A stretch of DNA of 64,000 nt from Spirochaetia bacterium. GTDB lineage: Bacteria; Spirochaetota; Spirochaetia; Sphaerochaetales; Sphaerochaetaceae. Made by a program: the position numbers and the translations under genes. Position 1 is the stretch's first letter. Every line of letters starts with the position of its first letter. Positions 6,296 to 59,321 of the stretch are shown here, piece after piece. Location of the stretch: the NCBI GenBank assembly GCA_022482625.1, contig JAKVOU010000001.1, positions 496,001 to 560,000 on the forward strand, read 5' to 3'. The notes under the pieces were generated by a model that was given only the letters and a program-made list of their open reading frames with translations, was not told the origin of the DNA and made no database searches.

Positions 6296-6310
6296 CTACA
6301 ATCTGTACAA

Positions 6311-6684
6311 TGGAGGTGGGGAGAGTCGAACTCCCGTCCTGACGTGCCACCCGTAGACCTCTACAGGCTTAGTCCCTGCTTGGTTTTGTCGCCAGAACTT
6401 CTGTGCAGGAACAGACATCATCCTAGCCAAGTCAGCTTTTATGTTCCTCTGCAGCACTGACCTCTGCAGAGGTAAGTCCCTATTGTTACAAGCATCCGAA
6501 AGTTAGGAACAGCACTAAGGGAGCCTGTACGTTCAAGCTAGCTTACGCAGCGAGAGCGTATTCTGCATCGTCGAAGTAATCTTCGTCTTTCTTTGCAGTT
6601 ATTGTTTTTTGCTAGTTTATGGAGTTGGCGCTCCGTCTGCAGCCTCCGGCCTGATCTACGCCAGTCGAAACCAAGTACACCCCC
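6311..6684 (-). ncRNA. ssrA: Transfer-messenger RNA (tmRNA, SsrA)
   Basis: Rescues stalled ribosomes and tags the nascent chain for degradation. On the minus strand the 5' end GGGGGTG at 6684-6678 pairs with CACCTCC at the 3' end (one G-U pair) to make the tRNA-like acceptor stem, followed by a discriminator A at 6311; CCA is not encoded. GGTTTCGACTGGCG near the 5' end and the T-arm with GGGAG/CTCCC around TTCGACT are typical. The resume codon GCA is at 6596-6594, after CAATAACT. The frame encodes the tag AKKDEDYFDDAEYALAA and stops at TAA 6545-6543. Length is about 374 bases. Confidence 0.95.
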
Positions 6685-45112: not shown

Positions 45113-45442
45113 TCAGGCCTCCTCATACAGGGCAATGCCTTCTGCCTTGAACCTTGCTTTCTGCAAGGCAAGAAGCTTCGCCAAGTCCTCCTTGTCTTCG
45201 GCAAGGGCAACCGGTTCAATTGCAAAGAGTTCAAGACCTATCCTTGCATATTCCTCCTGCAGGCAAGCATTGGTGTACAGGCCCATGTCCAGGCTGAAAC
45301 GTATCCTGCCCATGTCCTTCACCACGTCGTTGCTCTCCACCAGCAGGCTTCTGTCAGTCTGTTGGTTATAGATTCTCAGGATGCCTCTCTTTGGCCCATC
45401 AGCCAGGAAACAAAGAGAAGACAGTGAATCATCAGATATCAC
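45113..45442 (-). CDS. GIY-YIG-like small protein coupled to uridine phosphorylase
   Basis: A 109-residue protein resembling a degenerate branch of GIY-YIG domain proteins. The pattern is [20 protein letters not shown] (normally G-x-F/Y-x-I-x-N ... V-G-S-S-x-N-L), then [20 protein letters not shown] and [11 protein letters not shown]. The strictly catalytic Tyr of GIY is Leu, so nuclease activity is doubtful, though the later Glu is kept. It starts at GTG overlapping the uridine phosphorylase stop as GTGA, so it is translated with that enzyme. I see no ribosome site of its own. Function unknown. Confidence 0.65.
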
Positions 45443-46254
45443 TGTCTTGCCTCGTGTGCCTGCTGGTCATTGCCATCTTTTTCCCTGTCGGCTTTGATGA
45501 GGTTCCTTACCCCTTCGACCGCAACCTTGATCGCTGCCTCAGTATCATGCAGGATAGGATTGTCCATGCCGAGTTTTTCCCGTTCCTGGTTGCCGACGAC
45601 AAAGAATTCGCTGCCGCACCTTGCTCCGAGTCTGGCGCAGACGGTAAATATGGCAGCACTCTCCATTTCCGAAGCCAAGACACCAAGACGCTTCCAAGCC
45701 TCCCATTTTTCAGTCAGTTCATAGCTGACAGGCATGATCTGCGGTGAATGCTGTCCATAGAAGGAATCCTTGCACTGGACCACTCCCATATGATGGCGAT
45801 AACCAAGGGACTTGGCAGCTTCCCTGAGGCAAAGGGCAACATCGAAAGTTGCAACGGCAGGAAATTCGATAGGTGCGTACTCACGGCTCGTACCTTCCAT
45901 CCGCACCGCAGCCGTGGCAATGACTACATCGCCTCCGACGACAGGAAGCGCAATCCCGCCACAGGTTCCCATCCTTACGAAGGTATCTGCGCCACAGGTG
46001 TACAGTTCCTCAACGGCAATTGCAGCCGATGGGCCGCCTATACCCGTACTGGTAACAGAAACCTTTTCGCCTTCGAGCATTCCCGTATAAGTAACAAATT
46101 CCCTGCTATCCGCCACAAGTACAGGATCATCCAGATATTTTGCAATTTTCTTTACCCGTTTTGGATCCCCGGGAAGAATCACATACCTGCCTACATCACC
46201 CTTCTGTATCCGCAGATGATACTGGATACCGGTGCCTCCCATATAATCTGACAT
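45439..46254 (-). CDS. udp: Uridine phosphorylase (nucleoside phosphorylase, NP-I family)
   Basis: A 271-residue enzyme that splits pyrimidine nucleosides with phosphate. Features are [19 protein letters not shown] (phosphate loop), [37 protein letters not shown], and [13 protein letters not shown] (ribose Glu/Met-Glu), and [18 protein letters not shown] near the base site, closest to uridine phosphorylases. The ATG at 46254 has AAGGAG eight bases upstream; the frame runs to 46440 but without support. It is divergent from a deoD gene, the two sharing a 163-base control region, and coupled to the GIY-YIG-like gene downstream. Confidence 0.88.
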
Positions 46255-46417
46255 ACTGGACTCCTTGTTACGCAACTGTAAAAGAGTGCGTATGGGCAAG
46301 CATATCCCAGAACCACAAAAACCGCAACAGAGATAACTAAAATGATTATCGGAAGAGGGTGTCCAGTTCCCTGCAATCCATGATATACTGGTTCCCACTA
46401 GCACAGGAGGTGCCAAT

Positions 46418-47131
46418 ATGAACATTCCTACTCCGCACATTCAGGTGACGGATCCCGCGCTTGTGGCAACAACCGTACTTATGCCAGGTGACCCTTTGCG
46501 GGCAAAGTACATTGCAGAAACGTATCTTGAGGACTATGTCAGGATCAATGAAGTCCGCAACATGTTCGGCTACACAGGTTATTATAAGAAGAAGAAAATC
46601 ACCGTCTTTGCCTCAGGCATGGGAATACCGAGCATAGGCATCTATTCCTATGAACTGTTCAGTTTCTACAACGTGGAACGTATAATCCGTATCGGCTCCT
46701 GCGGCTCTTATGGCCCCCAGCTGAAACTGTATGATGTTGTACTGGCAAGCGATGCCTTCAGTACATCAACTTATGCACAGGTCCTGAACGGTGATACACG
46801 CAACATCATCGAGCCTTCCATGGAACTCAACAAGGCGCTTATGGAATCTGCAGCAGGACTGGATATTCCCCTGCATCCTGCACGGGTAAACAGCGAAGAT
46901 GCCTTCTATACAAATGACCCCAAGCATTATCTGAAGATGCGGGATGAAATAGGATGCAAAGTCGTTGAAATGGAATCATTCGGACTATTTGCCAATGCAC
47001 AGGCCCTCGGACGGCAAGCTGCCTGCCTGCTGACAGTATCTGACGAAATTGAAAGCGGCAGGAAAACTACCAGCGGCGAACGCCAGACTGCCTTCGGCAG
47101 AATGATGGAAATCGCTCTCAACGTCCGATAG
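46418..47131 (+). CDS. deoD: Purine nucleoside phosphorylase DeoD
   Basis: A 237-residue hexameric-type purine nucleoside phosphorylase. It shows MNIPTPHIQ (the usual DeoD start), [44 protein letters not shown] and [13 protein letters not shown], then TVSDEI with the catalytic Asp, a closer match to the classical DeoD than the copy at 971-1696. AGGAGG is eight bases before the ATG. It is divergent from the uridine phosphorylase gene and convergent with mutS2. Confidence 0.95.
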
Positions 47132-47181: not shown

Positions 47182-49542
47182 TTACAGTTCCACATAGGTC
47201 TTGCCCATGCCTCCGTCATCCGGTTTGGCAAAATGAAAGTCCTTTATGTTCTGGTCTTGTTTCAGATACCGCGTAATACCGGTCTGAAGGATGCCGTTGC
47301 CCAGGCCATGGATTACTTGGAAAGAAGACAGACCATGGACCATGCAGGCTTCAATCTGACGCTGCAATGCATCCAAAGCCTGTTCCAGGGTCAGACCACG
47401 GACATCGATGCACAGCTTCGGCCTCGGAGAAGAAGACAGATAGCTGACATTGACTTTCTGGGATTGAGGTTCCTGCTTGTCGATGGGCTCCAAGTCCTTT
47501 TCCTTGAGCGTAATGCGCATAGAACCGATACCTACTTCCCATTTGTCCCGGCCTGCAGCAGAAAGGATGATACCTTCCTTCTTCAGGGAACCGCACAGGA
47601 CATGGCATCCTACAGAAAGCACAGGTTTCGATCCTTTCATGTTCCTTGCATGCAGTTCCGTCTCTTCCTTGTCCAGCTGGTCTGAAAAATCCGCCTGCTT
47701 CTCTCCGATATCCGCAATGAATGTCTTTACAGCCTGGGTCTTTTCTTTCGTCAGTTTTCCCGTGGCAACATCCGATACAAGTTTTTCCAGCCTTGATCTG
47801 CTTTCCCTCACATATCTTGAAAGTTCAGTCGACTGGCTGACCTTGAGCATATGCTCTTTCTGCCGGACCTGAAGCTCATGCAGGTCAATCTGACGACGCA
47901 GTTCGGACAGCTGCCGCTCCCGCTCCTCAAGTTCCTTTGCCTTCCAGGCAGCCTCGCGCTGCCTGCTTTCCAATTCTTTGATGATCTTGCCCATCTGCAG
48001 GTTGTCAGACCCAAGGTAACGGCGCGCGGCTTCAATCACCTCATCAGGAAGCTTCATGCGAATTGCCGTATCAAGGGCATGGCTGTCTCCCGGCAACCCC
48101 TGTATGACATTGAACGTAGGCAAATGGCTGTCTTCATTGAACTCCATGCTGGCATTCATCATCGACGGCGAAATATAAGCCTTGTGCTTCAGGGATACCT
48201 GGTGAGATGTAATGAGGCTGAGACCGGCATGGACAGCCAGGTAGTCCAGGACACCGCAGGCAATGGCACCACCCTCGGCAGGATCGGTGCCCGATCCAAG
48301 TTCATCAAGGATGACCAAGGAACTGTCAGTACAGCCACGGAGTATCTGCGCAAGGTTATGCATATGGCCTGAAAACGTACTCAGTTCATCGCTGATGCTC
48401 TGTTCGTCCCCGATATCAGTGTACAGGCCGCTGAAAAGAGGCAATGCAGAACCTTCACTGCAAGGAATGAAACCAGTCAGCTGATTAAGCAATACAAAAA
48501 GTCCTACCGTCTTTATGGTTACCGTCTTTCCGCCTGCATTCGGACCGGAAAGGACCACGGCCCTGATATTCTCCTTCAGGTCAATGGTAATGGGAACAGC
48601 CTTCTGCCCCAGCAACGGGTGGCGGGCCTTGAGCAATCTTACCGGTGAAGGAGCCTCTTCCAGCAGCGTCTGCGTGCAATGCTGGTCAACGGACCATACA
48701 GCCATGGCATAAAGGCAATCTATCTGCGTCACGACGGAAGAAAGCACCCTCAGCTCCGTTTCCAACGACTTCAGCTGCTGTGAAAGCTCACTCAGGATCC
48801 TTGCAATCTCTATTTGTACCTGCTGTTCTGCCAGCACTACCTGGTTGTTGTACTCAACCAACTTGTAGGGTTCCATGAATATGGTATTGCCACTTGCAGA
48901 AGCACTGTGGACAAAACCATCAACCCTTGACTTGGCATCACTGCGGACAGGAAGGACCAGCCTGCCGTCACGGACGGTTTCCGGTTGGTCACGCATGGCA
49001 TCGACATGGCCTTTGATGAATTTCCTGGCATAGTCGGTCCTGCTGTGTCTGGACGCATCCGCAGCTTCAAGCAGCTTGCGGATTGAAGGATATGACTCCT
49101 TTACCTTGCCGTCCCCGTCCAGGACCTGGGTAGCTTTTTCTGCATATTGCAGAAGTTCAGGGATCAGATGTTCGGAAAGGGATGAGCCCAACGAAGGTTC
49201 AGATTCATCAAGGCACAAGAAATCAAGAAGTTTCCTGCTGCTGTCCACATACTCGGCAGATGCAAGCAGGCATATGCCATCCAGAGACTGATAGGTGCGG
49301 TCAAATTCTTCCAACACAGGTTCCAGTGAAGGAAAAGCCTCAGGCTTTTCCGTATGTGGACGTTGCAGCAACGCACGCAACCTATCAACTATATGCTGGC
49401 GTTCCAAAAGCAAGGTCCGGTCACCTATGAAATCATCAAATCCAAGCCTTGCCTTTCCTTCGCATGTCAGGCAATGCGAGGCAATCATCTGCCTGACCTG
49501 GGGGAAACCAAGGTCTTCCAAAGTCTTCTTGCTGACGGTCAT
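47182..49542 (-). CDS. mutS2: Endonuclease MutS2 (recombination/ribosome-rescue MutS homologue)
   Basis: A 786-residue MutS paralogue without the mismatch-recognition domain. It has an N-terminal lever/core region (LRALLQRPHTEKPEAFPSLE), LVLPVRSDAKSRVDGFVHSA, Walker A GPNAGGKTVTIKTVGL near residue 330, Walker B VILDELGSGTDPAEGGA, a long coiled coil (about 520-630), and a C-terminal Smr domain (LCIDVRGLTLEQALDAL, VIHGLGNGIL). MutS2 blocks recombination and, in Bacillus, splits collided ribosomes. Its ATG overlaps the rsgA stop as ATGA; pairing with RsgA, another ribosome factor, fits the second role. Confidence 0.94.
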   Translation of the reverse strand: MTVSKKTLEDLGFPQVRQMIASHCLTCEGKARLGFDDFIGDRTLLLERQHIVDRLRALLQRPHTEKPEAFPSLEPVLEEFDRTYQSLDGICLLASAEYVDSSRKLLDFLCLDESEPSLGSSLSEHLIPELLQYAEKATQVLDGDGKVKESYPSIRKLLEAADASRHSRTDYARKFIKGHVDAMRDQPETVRDGRLVLPVRSDAKSRVDGFVHSASASGNTIFMEPYKLVEYNNQVVLAEQQVQIEIARILSELSQQLKSLETELRVLSSVVTQIDCLYAMAVWSVDQHCTQTLLEEAPSPVRLLKARHPLLGQKAVPITIDLKENIRAVVLSGPNAGGKTVTIKTVGLFVLLNQLTGFIPCSEGSALPLFSGLYTDIGDEQSISDELSTFSGHMHNLAQILRGCTDSSLVILDELGSGTDPAEGGAIACGVLDYLAVHAGLSLITSHQVSLKHKAYISPSMMNASMEFNEDSHLPTFNVIQGLPGDSHALDTAIRMKLPDEVIEAARRYLGSDNLQMGKIIKELESRQREAAWKAKELEERERQLSELRRQIDLHELQVRQKEHMLKVSQSTELSRYVRESRSRLEKLVSDVATGKLTKEKTQAVKTFIADIGEKQADFSDQLDKEETELHARNMKGSKPVLSVGCHVLCGSLKKEGIILSAAGRDKWEVGIGSMRITLKEKDLEPIDKQEPQSQKVNVSYLSSSPRPKLCIDVRGLTLEQALDALQRQIEACMVHGLSSFQVIHGLGNGILQTGITRYLKQDQNIKDFHFAKPDDGGMGKTYVEL

Positions 49543-50507
49543 AGTATCTTTTCCTTCTGGTTCATCTTCTTATCCGGCATCTTGTACCTGGCCTTGCTTG
49601 TTGATCCCGTACTGCCCTTCCAGCAGGGACCCTGTTCTTCCAAGCTCTGCAATATCCTCAAGTAGCTCTCATACCGGTCAGCATCTATCAATCCTTCTTC
49701 AACTTGACGTTTGACTTCGCAGTCAGGCTCACTGTCATGCAGGCAGCCGTCATAGGCACATCTGGAAGCAGGTTCCCTGAACTCAGGAAAGCTGTTTGCA
49801 ATCTCAATAGGATCACGATGGGGAACGATCAGCTCACGTACTCCCGGAGTATCTACGATATGCAGGTCTCCCTGTTCCAGCAAGAGTGCATAGTTGGTCG
49901 TATGTCTTCCCCTGTTGTATTTGAGGGAAACATCACCCGTCCTTTGCCCACTGCCGAGCAGCACATTGACAAGCGTCGATTTGCCTACGCCGCTCTGCCC
50001 TACGAATGCGGCGAGCTTACCCCTGAGATAGTCCGACAATTCCTCGATGCCTCTTTCCTCCAATGCACTGGTCCTGAACACAGGGTAGCCCAGGCGGCCA
50101 AAAAGTTCGAGCCGTTCCTGTTCCTGTTCCGTCATATCCAGTTCCATCTTGTTAAGTACAATGATGACCGGAATTCCTTGGCTGCTGGCTATGACACGAT
50201 CGATGAACCTAGGCCGAAAAGGCGGTACCCCGCAGCTGCATACGCAGACAAGCAAATCCATATTGGCAACTACCGTCTGGTTACATTGCCCCTTTACATT
50301 CCATCTCTGGAAACAATTCCTTCGAGGAAGGCGACGGGTGACAAGCCCCTCCTGGGTACCTGTAACGGTAAATTCCACCAAGTCTCCCACAGAGAGAGGA
50401 TTATATTCACCACTGACAGCTTCAAGCTGCTTTCCCTTGATACGACAAGAGTAGACTGTCCCTTCACACTTTGCTGAAAAAATGTTGTTGATACCTCTGG
50501 TAATCAT
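49539..50507 (-). CDS. rsgA: Ribosome small-subunit GTPase RsgA
   Basis: Circularly permuted GTPase that helps mature 30S subunits. Order of motifs: an OB-fold (about 1-75), then G4 as VLNKMELD, G5 as TSALEERG, G1 P-loop GQSGVGKSTLVN, G2 region GRHTTNYALLL and G3 DTPGVREL, followed by a zinc knuckle (CAYDGCLHDSEPDCEV). The start at the ATG giving MITRGINNIFSAKCEG is chosen by comparison with homologues; ATGs at 50516 and 50525 are possible and none has a good ribosome site. The last 25 residues are a basic, Ser/Lys-rich tail. Confidence 0.9.
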   Translation of the reverse strand: MITRGINNIFSAKCEGTVYSCRIKGKQLEAVSGEYNPLSVGDLVEFTVTGTQEGLVTRRLPRRNCFQRWNVKGQCNQTVVANMDLLVCVCSCGVPPFRPRFIDRVIASSQGIPVIIVLNKMELDMTEQEQERLELFGRLGYPVFRTSALEERGIEELSDYLRGKLAAFVGQSGVGKSTLVNVLLGSGQRTGDVSLKYNRGRHTTNYALLLEQGDLHIVDTPGVRELIVPHRDPIEIANSFPEFREPASRCAYDGCLHDSEPDCEVKRQVEEGLIDADRYESYLRILQSLEEQGPCWKGSTGSTSKARYKMPDKKMNQKEKIL

Positions 50508-50545
50508 TCCGACCATGCTTTGCATGTTAGAGAAAAGAGAAAGGC

Positions 50546-50573
50546 TTGACAAGCATCAGATTTCTGATACGCT
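50546..50573 (+). promoter_or_regulatory. Possible promoter with internal palindrome before the pentapeptide-repeat gene
   Basis: TTGACA (50546-50551) and TACGCT (50568-50573) are 16 bases apart; the spacer contains a perfect palindrome, ATCAGA and TCTGAT around two bases (50555-50568). The expected start lies at or next to the A of the ATG at 50580, and there is no Shine-Dalgarno, which would make a leaderless message. The -10 match is modest. Confidence 0.4.
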
Positions 50574-50579
50574 GGATGC

Positions 50580-51179
50580 ATGTTCACATTTCAAACCTGC
50601 AAAAAAGAAGGATGCAATGCCTTTGTCTGCATGGATGGCGAGTACTGCTACAGGCATGCCCCAGACAGGGAAAAGCTACGGCAGAGACTGCGGGACCTGC
50701 TGGAAAGCGACCAGGACAGGATTGCTGACCTTTGCTTTACCCATGGAGAATTTGAAGATTTCGTCATAAAGAAAAAAAGATTGACCAGCAGCAACCTTTC
50801 ATGGTGCGTATTCCGGAACATTGATTTTTCAGGCTGTACGATCAACTCAAGTTTCTTCAGCTTCTGTATTTTTGACACCTGTAGGTTCAAGGATGTCGAC
50901 ATAAGGTATTCCGTCTTTTCAGGAAGCAAGATCATTGGCTGTGACTTTTCAGGTTCGCTTCTTATCCATGACAATTTCATGGGAATCGACGCATGGAACT
51001 GTGACTTCAGCAGCAGTGATCTCTACTTCACGACTTTCTGCAGTTCGCAGCTCAGGGATGTTTCCTTCGAAGATACCAATCTGAAGAAATCAGATTTCCG
51101 GATGACCGTGCAACGCAGGCTTAATTTCCGCTACTCGAACCTTGAATCAGCAAACGGCAGTTCCATGGCCGTACTGTGA
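50580..51179 (+). CDS. Pentapeptide-repeat-like protein with N-terminal Cys/His motif
   Basis: A 199-residue protein. Residues 1-30 contain a small Cys/His cluster (CKKEGC, then CMDGEYCYRH) that could bind zinc, followed by a charged helix. From about residue 60 to 190 there are repeated five-residue units with Phe/Leu at the centre (NLSWCVFRNIDFSGC, RYSVFSGSKIIGCDFSG, DLYFTTFCSSQLRDVSFED), which form a quadrilateral beta-helix. Repeats are cysteine rich and imperfect. Sixteen bases separate it from the metallo-beta-lactamase-fold gene, so they form an operon. Known pentapeptide proteins include gyrase protectors and scaffold proteins; the role here is unknown. Confidence 0.72.
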   Translation: MFTFQTCKKEGCNAFVCMDGEYCYRHAPDREKLRQRLRDLLESDQDRIADLCFTHGEFEDFVIKKKRLTSSNLSWCVFRNIDFSGCTINSSFFSFCIFDTCRFKDVDIRYSVFSGSKIIGCDFSGSLLIHDNFMGIDAWNCDFSSSDLYFTTFCSSQLRDVSFEDTNLKKSDFRMTVQRRLNFRYSNLESANGSSMAVL

Positions 51180-51195
51180 AAAGGGAGGAAATAGA

Positions 51196-51798
51196 ATGAA
51201 AATATACCAGCATTTTTCCGTAGTAGGGTTCTGCAATACCTATATCATCGGAGGTCCTGAAGGCGGACAGGCCATCCTCATTGACCCCGGACATGTAGAC
51301 AATGAGCTGATTGCAATAATCGAACGGAACCATTATACGTTGGGAACGATCCTGCTTACCCACCGTCACAAGGCCCACACCCAAGGCGTAGGGACCTTGC
51401 TCAAGATCTACAGTCCGAAGATATATGCCTATGCAGAAAAGGTCTATGACTTCCCCGTGACCAGGATACATGGGGATGAGACCATTGACTGCGGCGGTAT
51501 CAAAGTAGAAACCATACATGTACCTGGACACAGCGTCGATTCCTTGGTCTTCAAGATAAGCCATGCACTGTTCACAGGGGACACGCTCAATGCCGGCAGA
51601 ACCAGTTCAACTCCAGGCTATATGGAACGGTCTATCCTTGCAGACCAGATTGAAAAGAAACTGATGTGCCTGGACGGCAATTTCCTTCTGTTTCCAGGAC
51701 ACGGAGCTCCGAGCACCATCAACAACGAACGGCTGTTCAACCCCGATCTGTCAGAAAGGACCGCCTCACAGTGGATTCAAAGCTCACATCATTCATAG
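51196..51798 (+). CDS. Metallo-beta-lactamase-fold hydrolase with altered metal motif
   Basis: A 200-residue MBL-fold protein of the glyoxalase II-like type. The first metal motif, normally H-x-H-x-D-H, reads THRHKAHTQG, so the Asp is replaced by Ala while all His remain. Later metal ligands are present: VPGHSVDS, LFTGDTL and LFPGHGAPS. Start ATG 51196 has GGGAGG upstream; the frame extends to 51142 inside the previous gene. The loss of the Asp should weaken the second metal site, so it may use one metal, have another substrate, or be inactive. It pairs with the pentapeptide-repeat gene. Confidence 0.8.
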   Translation: MKIYQHFSVVGFCNTYIIGGPEGGQAILIDPGHVDNELIAIIERNHYTLGTILLTHRHKAHTQGVGTLLKIYSPKIYAYAEKVYDFPVTRIHGDETIDCGGIKVETIHVPGHSVDSLVFKISHALFTGDTLNAGRTSSTPGYMERSILADQIEKKLMCLDGNFLLFPGHGAPSTINNERLFNPDLSERTASQWIQSSHHS

Positions 51799-51838
51799 GA
51801 CAGGACATAAGATAAGGTTACCGAAGGAATATGGCAGG

Positions 51839-52813
51839 CTACAGCTGTCGGATAATCTGCTTGAACCGCTGTGGCATAGGAGAGCGGAAGTTGAGCCGCC
51901 TGCCATCACGCGGATGATCAAGTTCAAGGGAAAAGGAATGGAGCATCAATGTCGCTTGGGGAAAAGTCCTGTCAGGACGGGCATAGATCGGATCTCCCAG
52001 AAGAGGATGCCCTATCGATGCCATATGGACACGGATCTGATGGGTGCGTCCTGTATGGATGCTGATGCGTACCAAAGCATAGCCTTCAAACTGCCGCAGG
52101 ACCACAAAAGAAGTATCTGCAGACTTTCCCTTGGGAGGTTGGCAGATGGTAAATTTCTTCCTGTCTTTCCGGTCCCGGACCAGATTGGTCTGGATCCTGC
52201 CCCGTTTGTTTGTGAAAAAACCCTTGCAGATAGCTATATATACTTTACTGACCGTGTGTTCCTTGAATTGGGCAGCAAGCTTCCGATGGCTTTCCCTGTT
52301 CAAGGCAATGACCATTGTGCCGCTTGTGTCCTTATCCAGGCGATGCACGATGCCAGGCCTCAGCGGATCAAGCTGCCAGGCCTCGTCCTCGTCGATATCA
52401 GCAGCTGAATCGGCATTTTTGGAAGAAGCTGGATCACCGCTTTCAAAATCCCTGCCATACCTGAATACCAATGCATTTACAAGCGTATGATGCAGGTTTC
52501 CCGCCCCAGGATGTACAACCATTCCTTGGGCTTTGTCAACGACAAGCAAGTCAGCATCCTCATACAGGATATGAAGCGGCAGATCTTCTCCCTCTATTTC
52601 TCCGAAGCACTCCTGGCTATATGAGACGACTATCCGGTCGCCACAGGAAACCTTGCTGCTGTTCTTTGCCGGTTTCCCGTTTATGGTAATCTCTGCATCG
52701 GCGACAAGGGAACGGGAAACATCATCCCGACAGGAAGCGACATATTTGTCCACCCTCACAGGCTGTGCGATTTCTCCGACAGTCAGTTCTATCAGTCCTT
52801 TGTCCAGGGACAT
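51839..52813 (-). CDS. rluD: Ribosomal large-subunit pseudouridine synthase, RluD family
   Basis: A 324-residue enzyme that isomerises specific uridines in 23S rRNA. It has an N-terminal S4 RNA-binding domain (VRVDKYVASCRDDVSRSLVA), the family segment LLVVDKAQGMVVHPGAGN, and the catalytic Asp in GIVHRLDKDTSG, then YIAICKGFF and RTHQIRVHMASIGHPLLGD. A short acidic insert (about 118-140, SADSAADIDEDE-like) is unusual. ATG 52813 overlaps the previous stop by one base; a TTG one codon earlier, with better spacing to GGAG, is also possible. Confidence 0.92.
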   Translation of the reverse strand: MSLDKGLIELTVGEIAQPVRVDKYVASCRDDVSRSLVADAEITINGKPAKNSSKVSCGDRIVVSYSQECFGEIEGEDLPLHILYEDADLLVVDKAQGMVVHPGAGNLHHTLVNALVFRYGRDFESGDPASSKNADSAADIDEDEAWQLDPLRPGIVHRLDKDTSGTMVIALNRESHRKLAAQFKEHTVSKVYIAICKGFFTNKRGRIQTNLVRDRKDRKKFTICQPPKGKSADTSFVVLRQFEGYALVRISIHTGRTHQIRVHMASIGHPLLGDPIYARPDRTFPQATLMLHSFSLELDHPRDGRRLNFRSPMPQRFKQIIRQL

Positions 52814-53184
52814 CAATTGAATTCTCCTATGATATAGTCTGTGACGGCAATGAACAGGGAAATTGTCGCCGCAACGACAAGCTCCTGCTTCAGCAGCTGC
52901 AGATCGTCATCAGGATAGGAAAGCAATCCTGCGCTTACTCCTACTCCGTAGCCAAGCGTAACTACCGGCATTGAAAAAGCAAGCGAACCGAAGAAAAGTG
53001 ATTCGCCTCTCCGCAACTTTACTGCCCATGACGGGAATTCCTCAGCCTTGTAGGGCTCAAACGTAAAGTCCTGGCTGTCATCAGTAGTATCGCTGCTACT
53101 GCTGTCTGTAGCAAACAAAGAAGCACAGGACAGGCACAGGACTACCAGAAGCAGCAAAGGAAGCTTATGTTTCACCTTATGCAT
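52813..53184 (-). CDS. Small exported/membrane protein of unknown function
   Basis: Not recognised. The 123-residue product begins with a signal peptide (MHKVKHKLPLLLLVVLCLSC, ending SLFATDS) followed by a Ser/Thr/Asp linker, then EEFPSWAVKLRRGESLFFGS and two hydrophobic segments (about 72-92 and 101-119). The SC-A context after the hydrophobic core might be a spirochaete lipobox. It overlaps the end of yggS by eight bases and meets rluD at TGATG, so it is translated with both. Similar small proteins occur in related spirochaetes only as hypotheticals as far as I know. Confidence 0.65.
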   Translation of the reverse strand: MHKVKHKLPLLLLVVLCLSCASLFATDSSSSDTTDDSQDFTFEPYKAEEFPSWAVKLRRGESLFFGSLAFSMPVVTLGYGVGVSAGLLSYPDDDLQLLKQELVVAATISLFIAVTDYIIGEFN

Positions 53185-53869
53185 CCTTGTTCCCGTAGTC
53201 ACGCTTTCCGAATATCTTCGTTCCGACTCTGATGAGCGTTGAACCACACTGCAGGGCAAGAAGGTAATCACCGCTCATACCCATGCTCAGTTCATGCAAG
53301 TTGAGAGAGGGAACATCACTTGCAAGTCTGGACTGGATTTCAACCAGATGCTCGAAAGCCTGCTTGGTCTTTGCATGGTCGTCTCCCAATGGTCCGATCG
53401 TCATCAGTCCGTCAATCCTGATATGAGGAAAATCGCCGGCATGCTGGCAAAGTTCCAGGATCTCAGCATAGGAGCCGAATCCGCTCTTGTTTTTCTCTCC
53501 GCTGGTATTGTATTCAAGAAGCACAGGCATGATGATGCCGAAATCAGCTGCGGAGCTATTGATCAAACGTGCTACCTTCATGCTGTCGACACTGTCAATT
53601 GCATCAACATAGGAAACCGCCTTCTTGACTTTGTTGGACTGCAGGTGTCCGATCAAGTGCAGCTCCATCCCCTCCGGTCTTGCACCCTTCGGAGGAAATT
53701 TCATCAGCACTTCCTGTACACGGTTCTCTCCGAACAACCTTTGTCCAAGGTCATAGGCCTCCATTACCGCTTCCCAGGGATGGGTCTTGCTGACAGCCAT
53801 CAGCCTGGTTTTCCCTTCCCTTCCACATTCCTCGATCTGTCTATGTATTTCATTCAATGCTTCTTTCAT
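53177..53869 (-). CDS. YggS/PROSC family pyridoxal-phosphate homeostasis protein
   Basis: A 230-residue TIM-barrel protein that binds pyridoxal 5'-phosphate and keeps free PLP low. It shows TRLMAVSKTHPWEAVMEAY, with the PLP Lys, then FGENRVQEVLMKFPP, LHLIGHLQSNKVKKAV, and the C-terminal LSMGMSGDYLLALQCGSTLI followed by RVGTKIFG, all standard. The ATG at 53869 has GAGGTG eight bases upstream; the longer frame to 53899 is not needed. It leads the yggS - small membrane protein - rluD unit. Confidence 0.93.
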   Translation of the reverse strand: MKEALNEIHRQIEECGREGKTRLMAVSKTHPWEAVMEAYDLGQRLFGENRVQEVLMKFPPKGARPEGMELHLIGHLQSNKVKKAVSYVDAIDSVDSMKVARLINSSAADFGIIMPVLLEYNTSGEKNKSGFGSYAEILELCQHAGDFPHIRIDGLMTIGPLGDDHAKTKQAFEHLVEIQSRLASDVPSLNLHELSMGMSGDYLLALQCGSTLIRVGTKIFGKRDYGNKDA

Positions 53870-53915
53870 CAGAGTCACCTCTGCGTATAACCATACCACA
53901 CACGATCAAAAAATC

Positions 53916-59249: not shown

Positions 59250-59321
59250 GGGCGGATAGCTCAGTGGGAGAGCGGTTGCCTTACACGCAACTGGTCGGGG
59301 GTTCAAATCCCTCTCCGCTCA
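59250..59321 (+). tRNA. tRNA-Val (anticodon TAC)
   Basis: A complete cloverleaf: acceptor GGGCGGA paired with TCCGCTC (one G-U), D-arm TAGCTCAGTGGGAGAGC, anticodon stem GTTGC/GCAAC with loop CTTACAC (anticodon TAC, reading GTA and, with modification, other GTN codons), and T-arm GGGGGTTCAAATCCCT. Discriminator A; CCA is not encoded. It is a single-gene unit with its own promoter and terminator. Confidence 0.96.

Follow-up and report, generated by a model that had tools for sequence, protein, structure and literature searches.

A pentapeptide-repeat protein and an MBL-fold protein lacking the motif aspartate form a class-wide gene pair in spirochaetes

Introduction

The described systems closest to the locus considered here lie among the MBL-fold hydrolases and the pentapeptide-repeat proteins (PRPs). 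The model of the MBL protein has the same fold as S. aureus GloB (7l0b; Z 25.7, rmsd 1.9 over 183 residues) and Salmonella YcbL (2xf4; Z 25.3, rmsd 2.1 over 186 residues), and five histidines and Asp129 are common to it and to hydrolases of this type. Unlike them, the family to which it belongs is without the motif aspartate in all 71 of its ligand-complete members, has lost further ligands in 31 of 102 members and has a PRP as partner. The protein shows the fold and the Pfam profile of the superfamily, with HRHKAH in place of the HxHxDH motif, and it scores far below the equivalog cut-offs for GloB (TIGR03413; 72.1 bits, cut-off 200.8) and for the NCBIfam sulfur dioxygenase (20.1 bits, cut-off 625).

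The fold is also shared with the persulfide dioxygenase ETHE1, whose iron ligands are given as His79, His135 and Asp154 (PMC4383860) and have their equivalents in His56, His112 and Asp129 of the MBL protein. ETHE1 keeps the motif aspartate, Asp83, which in that account is not one of the iron ligands, whereas none of the 71 ligand-complete family members has it and 27 of the 102 are without at least one of the iron-ligand equivalents. A different comparison is offered by CPSF100 and INTS9, described as MBL pseudoenzymes that act as binding subunits and have a damaged motif 2 (PMC4819959, PMC7980224). These differ in being eukaryotic, in belonging to the beta-CASP group and in having a sister nuclease that is active, and the likeness is that of the superfamily fold.

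The pentapeptide-repeat beta-helix of the PRP is common to MfpA, AlbG, Qnr and McbG-like proteins, unlike which the PRP has an N-terminal C-C-C-H knuckle and an MBL partner. Its scores against the NCBIfam equivalogs are low both for Qnr (24.4 bits, cut-off 240) and for MfpA (20.7, cut-off 360), the Qnr, MfpA and HetL models together giving 12.8–33.5 bits against cut-offs of 240–500. There is a weak match to HalA of the Hailong system (anti_phage_HalA), at 21.8 bits for the PRP and 33.1 bits for TP0405 of Treponema pallidum against a cut-off of 250. Phage defence was set aside, neither protein having a match in PADLOC; an antibiotic-resistance or immunity cassette was rejected as the main reading, as the model scores are far below cut-off and the gene is class-wide and chromosomal.

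The first-pass annotation of this DNA knew of no described system that joins the two proteins and left their function unassigned. This agrees with the open-access literature searched, in which no description or functional study of the pair was found; a term search of PMC3726837 gave no mention.

Results

The gene pair and its products

The window is the whole stretch of 64,000 nucleotides of Spirochaetia DNA that was analysed. The PRP gene precedes the MBL gene in one tight pair, as the first-pass annotation had it, with 16 nt between the PRP stop and the MBL ATG and GGGAGG within them (Table 1). The mechanically called reading frame of the MBL protein opens at TTG 51142, but ATG 51196 is the likelier start, because GGGAGG lies just 5′ of it and methionine is found there in at least 90% of 50 alignment rows. 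Since the flanking genes on both sides are oppositely oriented, the pair probably forms its own two-gene transcription unit; a promoter and terminator scan gave no excess over shuffled sequence. To the left are rsgA and then mutS2, and to the right an RluA-family synthase, a 152-residue protein and yggS, all on the minus strand.

Table 1. Features of the gene pair and its immediate neighbours, in window coordinates.
Feature	Position	Strand	Details and basis
rsgA, 30S biogenesis GTPase, divergent neighbour	49539..50552	-	TIGR00157 E 5.7e-56, above cut-off
PRP (pentapeptide-repeat protein) gene	50580..51179	+	ATG 50580, TGA 51177-51179, 199 aa
PRP layout: N-terminal C-C-C-H knuckle, short helix, pentapeptide-repeat beta-helix	50580..51179	+	
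Putative zinc knuckle of PRP, C7-x4-C12-x10-C23-x2-H26	50598..50657	+	Family alignment
PRP pentapeptide-repeat domain, residues ~62-192	50763..51155	+	Pfam, alignment, AlphaFold2 model
GGGAGG, probable ribosome-binding site of MBL gene	51183..51188	+	Inferred from sequence
MBL-fold protein gene; 200-aa product resembling GloB/YcbL in fold, with Ala for the Asp of HxHxDH	51196..51798	+	Stop 51796-51798
Altered motif of MBL, T55-H-R-H-K-A-H61	51358..51378	+	Ala60 codon GCC at 51373-51375
RluA-family pseudouridine synthase, convergent neighbour	51839..52816	-	TIGR00005 E 3.5e-72, above cut-off

Both proteins match Pfam above cut-off, the PRP to Pentapeptide (PF00805; E 4.2e-14, 52.2 against 20.2 bits) and Pentapeptide_4 (PF13599; E 1.3e-13, 51.3 against 38 bits), and the MBL to Lactamase_B (E 2.3e-12, 47.7 against 22.7 bits). 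Within the repeat domain of the PRP the segments DLY, C-N-L-K and YSNxEEA are conserved and specific to the family. The AlphaFold2 models are of high confidence, with pLDDT values of 93.0 for the MBL and 95.6 for the PRP. By VIA the predicted MBL structure most closely matches S. aureus GloB, BLEG-1, YcbL, a glyoxalase II, TTHA1623 and ETHE1 with Z of 24.2–25.7. The best match to the predicted PRP is MfpA (2bm5; Z 22.4, rmsd 1.6 over 155 residues), although MfpA, other natural PRPs, AlbG and synthetic PRPs all match about equally (Z 21–22); because PRPs share one fold, such matches cannot separate their functions. A strongly acidic, DNA-mimicking surface was also considered for the PRP, for which the median whole-protein pI of the family, 5.36, is not decisive.

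Of 78 aligned PRPs, 72 have the N-terminal knuckle as C-C-C-H and two as C-C-C-C, and four are without it. A similar knuckle is present in 16 of 25 further PRPs and absent from nine, the PRP of T. pallidum being among those without it, and overall 13 of 103 PRPs are missing the knuckle. From its pattern it presumably binds zinc, and the exchange of the histidine for cysteine fits a zinc site. Pfam Zf_WRKY19 (PF24906) gave weak matches in 7 of 58 PRPs at E up to 0.5 (best 0.0017), the window PRP not being included, and the three matches of the knuckle to solved structures (best E 0.55) were taken as chance. The Cys-rich PRP with a possible zinc cluster that had been proposed for the window is in this way narrowed to one N-terminal knuckle, the other cysteines being scattered in the repeat and probably ordinary. 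A coupled loss of the knuckle and of the MBL ligands was considered, three of the four knuckle-less rows among the 78 (L075, L079, L093) having a degraded MBL. It was dropped, as knuckle-less PRPs also adjoin ligand-complete MBLs (L142/L168, L144/L164, L146/L173, L154/L162).

Co-occurrence in spirochaetes and beyond

The PRP and MBL are a core two-protein module of spirochaetes, a class-wide gene pair of known folds. In searches of 150 related genomes with each window protein at E 0.001, 141 had MBL matches and 112 PRP matches, many of them to other MBL or PRP genes. Family members were accordingly defined as MBLs with E ≤2.1e-20, plus that of G091, which is split by a contig end, and PRPs with E ≤1.9e-16, plus those of G042 and of G101, the last being weak by single-sequence search and 8.3e-60 with the PRP profile. 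On these cuts both proteins occur in 105 genomes and neither in 44, with the MBL alone in none and the PRP alone in one (G042), where its match is weak and partial. The immediate upstream neighbour of the MBL gene, in the same orientation, is the PRP gene in 102 of these 105 genomes, so that the linkage expected of the homologues is conserved, although, the flanking block being itself highly syntenic, adjacency within the class is partly background and weaker evidence than the raw count. The gap is 2–98 nt in 101 genomes and in G074 the matches overlap by 1 nt (range −1 to 98). In three genomes of genus g32 the pair is split onto different contigs and both genes are retained. In the loci of this genus (L069, L070, L087, L088, L101, L102) the MBL gene still lies by the RluA-type gene, the two sharing a strand in L069 and in L101; the PRP gene is found elsewhere.

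Across 392 genomes of the phylum the PRP profile matched 204 at E ≤1e-12, some of these matches being other PRPs; the 188 without a match include at least 15 of family f19 (0.9–1.8 Mb) and at least five small Sphaerochaetaceae. Thirty further genomes were picked from the profile matches. Of these, 25 have the full family PRP, with the MBL adjoining in the same order and orientation in all 25, and five have weaker PRP matches and no adjoining MBL (G156, G168, G184, G205, G277). The sole test beyond the phylum, a scan of 84,980 species with one peptide pattern that leaves room for relatives elsewhere, returned 38 relatives. Thirty-six are spirochaetes, overlapping with the genomes of the other surveys, and have the PRP beside the MBL in every case (35 called by rule and L230 by its short gap, as for G007); the other two are deltaproteobacterial MBLs that have HxHxDH intact and, in the stretch fetched, no PRP. 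Outside class Spirochaetia the family was met in five genomes (G163, G174, G198, G212, G219).

Among the 25 genomes with the adjoining pair is that of T. pallidum (G201), where the two frames overlap by 4 nt and the neighbours are a glutamate racemase gene (tested) on one side and, on the other, what we take to be the fliG–fliJ group. In its MBL, Arg, Asp, Ala and Thr replace His56, His58, Asp60 and His61, and Tyr replaces His112. Published mapping places tp0404 at nucleotide 430384 (PMC7162541), which is within the MBL gene of G201 (430046–430549), and the pair is therefore TP0404/TP0405. The two are named ‘MBL fold metallo-hydrolase’ and ‘penta-peptide repeat protein’ in PMC8525777, where their log2 ratios of rabbit over in vitro are −1.06 and −1.30, both about twofold lower in rabbits, a shared shift that is one among many in that table. 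On the basis of annotation and modelling, others have named TP0405 a homologue of McbG (PMC9200625, PMC5956850). The present comparison suggests that neither ‘MBL fold metallo-hydrolase’ nor ‘McbG-like’ is a label to be trusted for function.

The metal site of the MBL protein

The absence of the expected aspartate from THRHKAH, first noted in the window, was confirmed, codon 60 of the MBL being GCC (Ala). The comparison set of 102 distinct MBL sequences was made up of the 76 that remained of the window and 89 loci once identical rows and three PRP-only loci had been removed, together with 26 more. The five histidines and the bridging Asp129 are all kept in 71 of these, which at the aspartate position have Ser (31), Ala (19), Asn (11), His (4), Arg (2), Gln (2), Gly (1) or Pro (1) and never Asp. 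The change is thus common to the MBL subfamily, as had been asked of it, and a sequencing error at Ala60 is very unlikely. Asp is found at position 60 in three of the 102 (L072, L090, L182), all of which have lost other ligands. The 13 other MBL genes of the window's own genome, taken as a control, all have the aspartate (Fisher p 1.6e-15 against 0 of 71 in the family, related sequences being treated as independent). Loss of the aspartate is a family trait and, from the alignment, most simply an ancestral one; a tree of the family MBLs with paralogues gives two changes of label, on branches too long to prove one origin.

The window MBL has lost one ligand only, with His56, His58, His61, His112, Asp129 and His169 all kept (numbering from the ATG). 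That the other ligands remain is true of the window and of 71 of its 102 relatives but not of the other 31, in 29 of which two or more further ligands have gone. At least one of His56, His112 and Asp129 is missing from 27 of the 31, Asp129 itself from eight of the 102, and the family MBLs from outside the class are ligand-poor. On a tree built with the ligand columns removed, parsimony requires 10 changes, at least five of them forced by well-supported branches; the tree is from a short search and has several long branches.

In the two measurable pairs, the ligand-poor MBLs are under strong purifying selection, with dN/dS of 0.081 (L079/L093) and 0.076 (L076/L105), slightly above the 0.014, 0.065, 0.068 and 0.073 of the four ligand-complete pairs with usable dS; the remaining pairs were saturated. 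The values for the PRP are 0.103 and 0.161 in the ligand-poor pairs against 0.040–0.075 in five ligand-complete pairs (four genus- or family-level pairs and L030/L097), so that constraint may be relaxing there. Nine further positions, Asn14, Tyr16, Asp30, Thr55, Phe126, Gly128, Pro167, Gly170 and Glu178, are each kept in 100–102 of the 102 MBLs. These counts are from the full set and are unbiased. Alignment A1 has ligand-complete rows only (50 chosen of 76), which biases its list of invariant positions and the model derived from it.

Discussion

It would seem, at a little below an even chance, that the PRP and the MBL are partners in one stable complex, in which a non-canonical MBL serves mainly as a binding scaffold and the PRP links it to a target. 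Linkage, co-presence, ligand loss, purifying selection in the sampled pairs and the covariation of distances described below are what is observed, and the folds are as modelled. The physical complex, the scaffold role and the existence of a target are the parts that we infer. The complex would be encoded by genes that are widely retained in class Spirochaetia, and its MBL would derive from a hydrolase of the GloB/YcbL type, the second metal site of which may have been dismantled early with the loss of the aspartate, several lineages later losing further ligands. Rather than act as a canonical dinuclear hydrolase, the MBL would contribute a binding surface and would often be metal-free, while ligand-complete members may retain a single structural or regulatory metal. 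The PRP would form a stiff beta-helix rod whose N-terminus mostly carries a zinc knuckle; presenting a conserved face, it would join the MBL to a macromolecular target, either protein or nucleic acid. Hints as to the target come from Hsp33, in three of the five relatives outside the class, and from gyrase, through the PRP fold only.

Repeated decay of the catalytic ligands in a fold that selection maintains is as expected of a binding subunit, for which INTS9 and CPSF100, as described (PMC7980224, PMC4819959), are a precedent within the superfamily, and both T. pallidum genes shift expression in the same direction (PMC8525777). Of the functions first suggested for the pair, which were protein binding, detoxification and redox handling, the first is favoured over the second, since ligand loss under purifying selection moves the balance from detoxification by hydrolysis to protein binding; the one hint at redox handling is the Hsp33 gene discussed below. 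Against the scaffold are the PRPs without a knuckle, the raised dN/dS of the PRP in the ligand-poor pairs, the synteny of the surrounding block and the stronger covariation of another pair of genes within it. The retention of the five histidines and Asp129 by most members, Asp129 being lost from so few, would also be odd if metal were never bound.

A bolder form of the binding scaffold, possible but on balance unlikely, is a machine specific to spirochaetes, an obligate complex of a zinc-knuckle PRP rod and an MBL pseudoenzyme that controls a core process by binding and not by catalysis. Step by step a GloB-like hydrolase would have been taken apart to give this MBL, which even T. pallidum, with a genome of 1.1 Mb, has retained; the process controlled could be related to proteostasis, topoisomerase or the ribosome.

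Kept by most of a class that includes the small-genome agent of syphilis, the two proteins are promising candidates for a part in the core biology of spirochaetes. The MBL family, moreover, is a natural series from a near-complete metal site to hardly any ligand, so that it can be tested whether bacteria can use an MBL fold that does not catalyse.

The main rival, unlikely though it has to be taken seriously, is that the MBL has remained catalytic with one metal, bound at site 1 (His56, His58, His112, Asp129). It could then be an iron oxygenase like ETHE1, or a thioesterase or lactonase with one zinc; the PRP would regulate or stabilise it, and some lineages would have lost the activity secondarily. 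Consistent with this, the window MBL keeps the equivalents of the ETHE1 iron ligands, ETHE1 as described does not use its motif aspartate for metal (PMC4383860) and the nearest folds to the model include those of ETHE1 proteins (4ysb, Z 24.2). In BcII, replacement of Asp120 with Asn is reported to reduce activity more than 100-fold with the second zinc still bound (PMC2422870), and 71 of 102 family MBLs have the five histidines and Asp129. The ligand-poor MBLs argue the other way, nearly all being without part of the iron site, and two such pairs are under strong purifying selection; the GloB and sulfur-dioxygenase scores, too, are far below cut-off.

Rather less probable than either enzyme or scaffold is a redox or zinc-stress proteostasis module acting with the chaperone Hsp33, which would accord with the putative zinc knuckle of the PRP. 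In three of the five family genomes from outside the class (G163/L194, G174/L197, G212/L196) the next gene downstream of the pair is that for Hsp33, which shares its strand and overlaps the MBL frame, but the Hsp33 gene does not follow in G198 (L195) or G219 (L181) and does not recur near the pair inside the class among the gene clusters listed, to the 45th. Of the 105 genomes that have the pair, 85 also have Hsp33, as do 28 of the 45 that lack the pair. Each thus occurs independently of the other; Hsp33 was rejected as an obligate partner and is a lead and not a mechanism. Hsp33 and the region that follows it occupy 6465–8594 of L194, 7191–8431 of L196 and 7192–9262 of L197. A gene for a PilZ-domain protein comes after Hsp33 in L194 and L197 (tested), the start of a similar frame is seen in L196, and in L195 the PilZ gene directly follows the pair.

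It is highly improbable that the PRP, with the MBL as partner, protects or regulates DNA gyrase in the manner of Qnr, MfpA or McbG, although the mcbG-homologue annotation or modelling of tp0405 (PMC9200625, PMC5956850) and the modelled fold matches to MfpA (Z 22.4), AlbG (21.4) and EfsQnr (21.2) could suggest it. Synthetic PRPs score as well in the fold comparison, the Qnr, MfpA and HetL scores are a small part of their cut-offs, the family has a median pI of 5.36, and the gene is chromosomal and class-wide.

The pair stands within a block, mutS2–rsgA–(murI)–PRP–MBL–RluA-type synthase–small membrane protein–yggS, seen in the window (47182–53899) and in loci L062–L121, which from its gene order is an old syntenic block conserved across class Spirochaetia. 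Upstream, mutS2, rsgA or murI is found in 43 of 48 fetched loci with enough flank, and downstream the RluA-type gene, the membrane protein or yggS in 45 of 49. PRP and MBL distances are correlated at 0.51 (p 0.001; 34 loci, controlled for yggS, the RluA-type gene and rsgA), against −0.09 to 0.33 for either protein with the three neighbour genes; as RluD and RsgA covary even more (0.59), the covariation is supportive and not specific to complexes. That there is no functional tie, the genes being an ancestral block never rearranged, would explain flanks conserved in about nine of ten loci with enough flank but is very doubtful, for the pair is intact where the block is absent on both sides (L079, L093), where it is gone downstream in T. 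pallidum and where it is gone in the four loci read from outside the class, both genes are retained where the linkage is broken in genus g32, and an MBL without a PRP occurs in none of the 150 genomes.

The 152-residue protein encoded between the RluA-type gene and yggS (52813–53271, minus strand) has homologues in 50 of 60 fetched loci and no NCBIfam match, and is a second uncharacterised family of the block. Elsewhere in the window the reading frames at 45439–46440 (minus) and 46418–47131 (plus), presumably nucleoside-phosphorylase-like, are divergent, their mechanical starts overlapping slightly. A tmRNA gene lies at 6308–6684 on the minus strand and a tRNA-Val gene at 59250–59321 on the plus strand.
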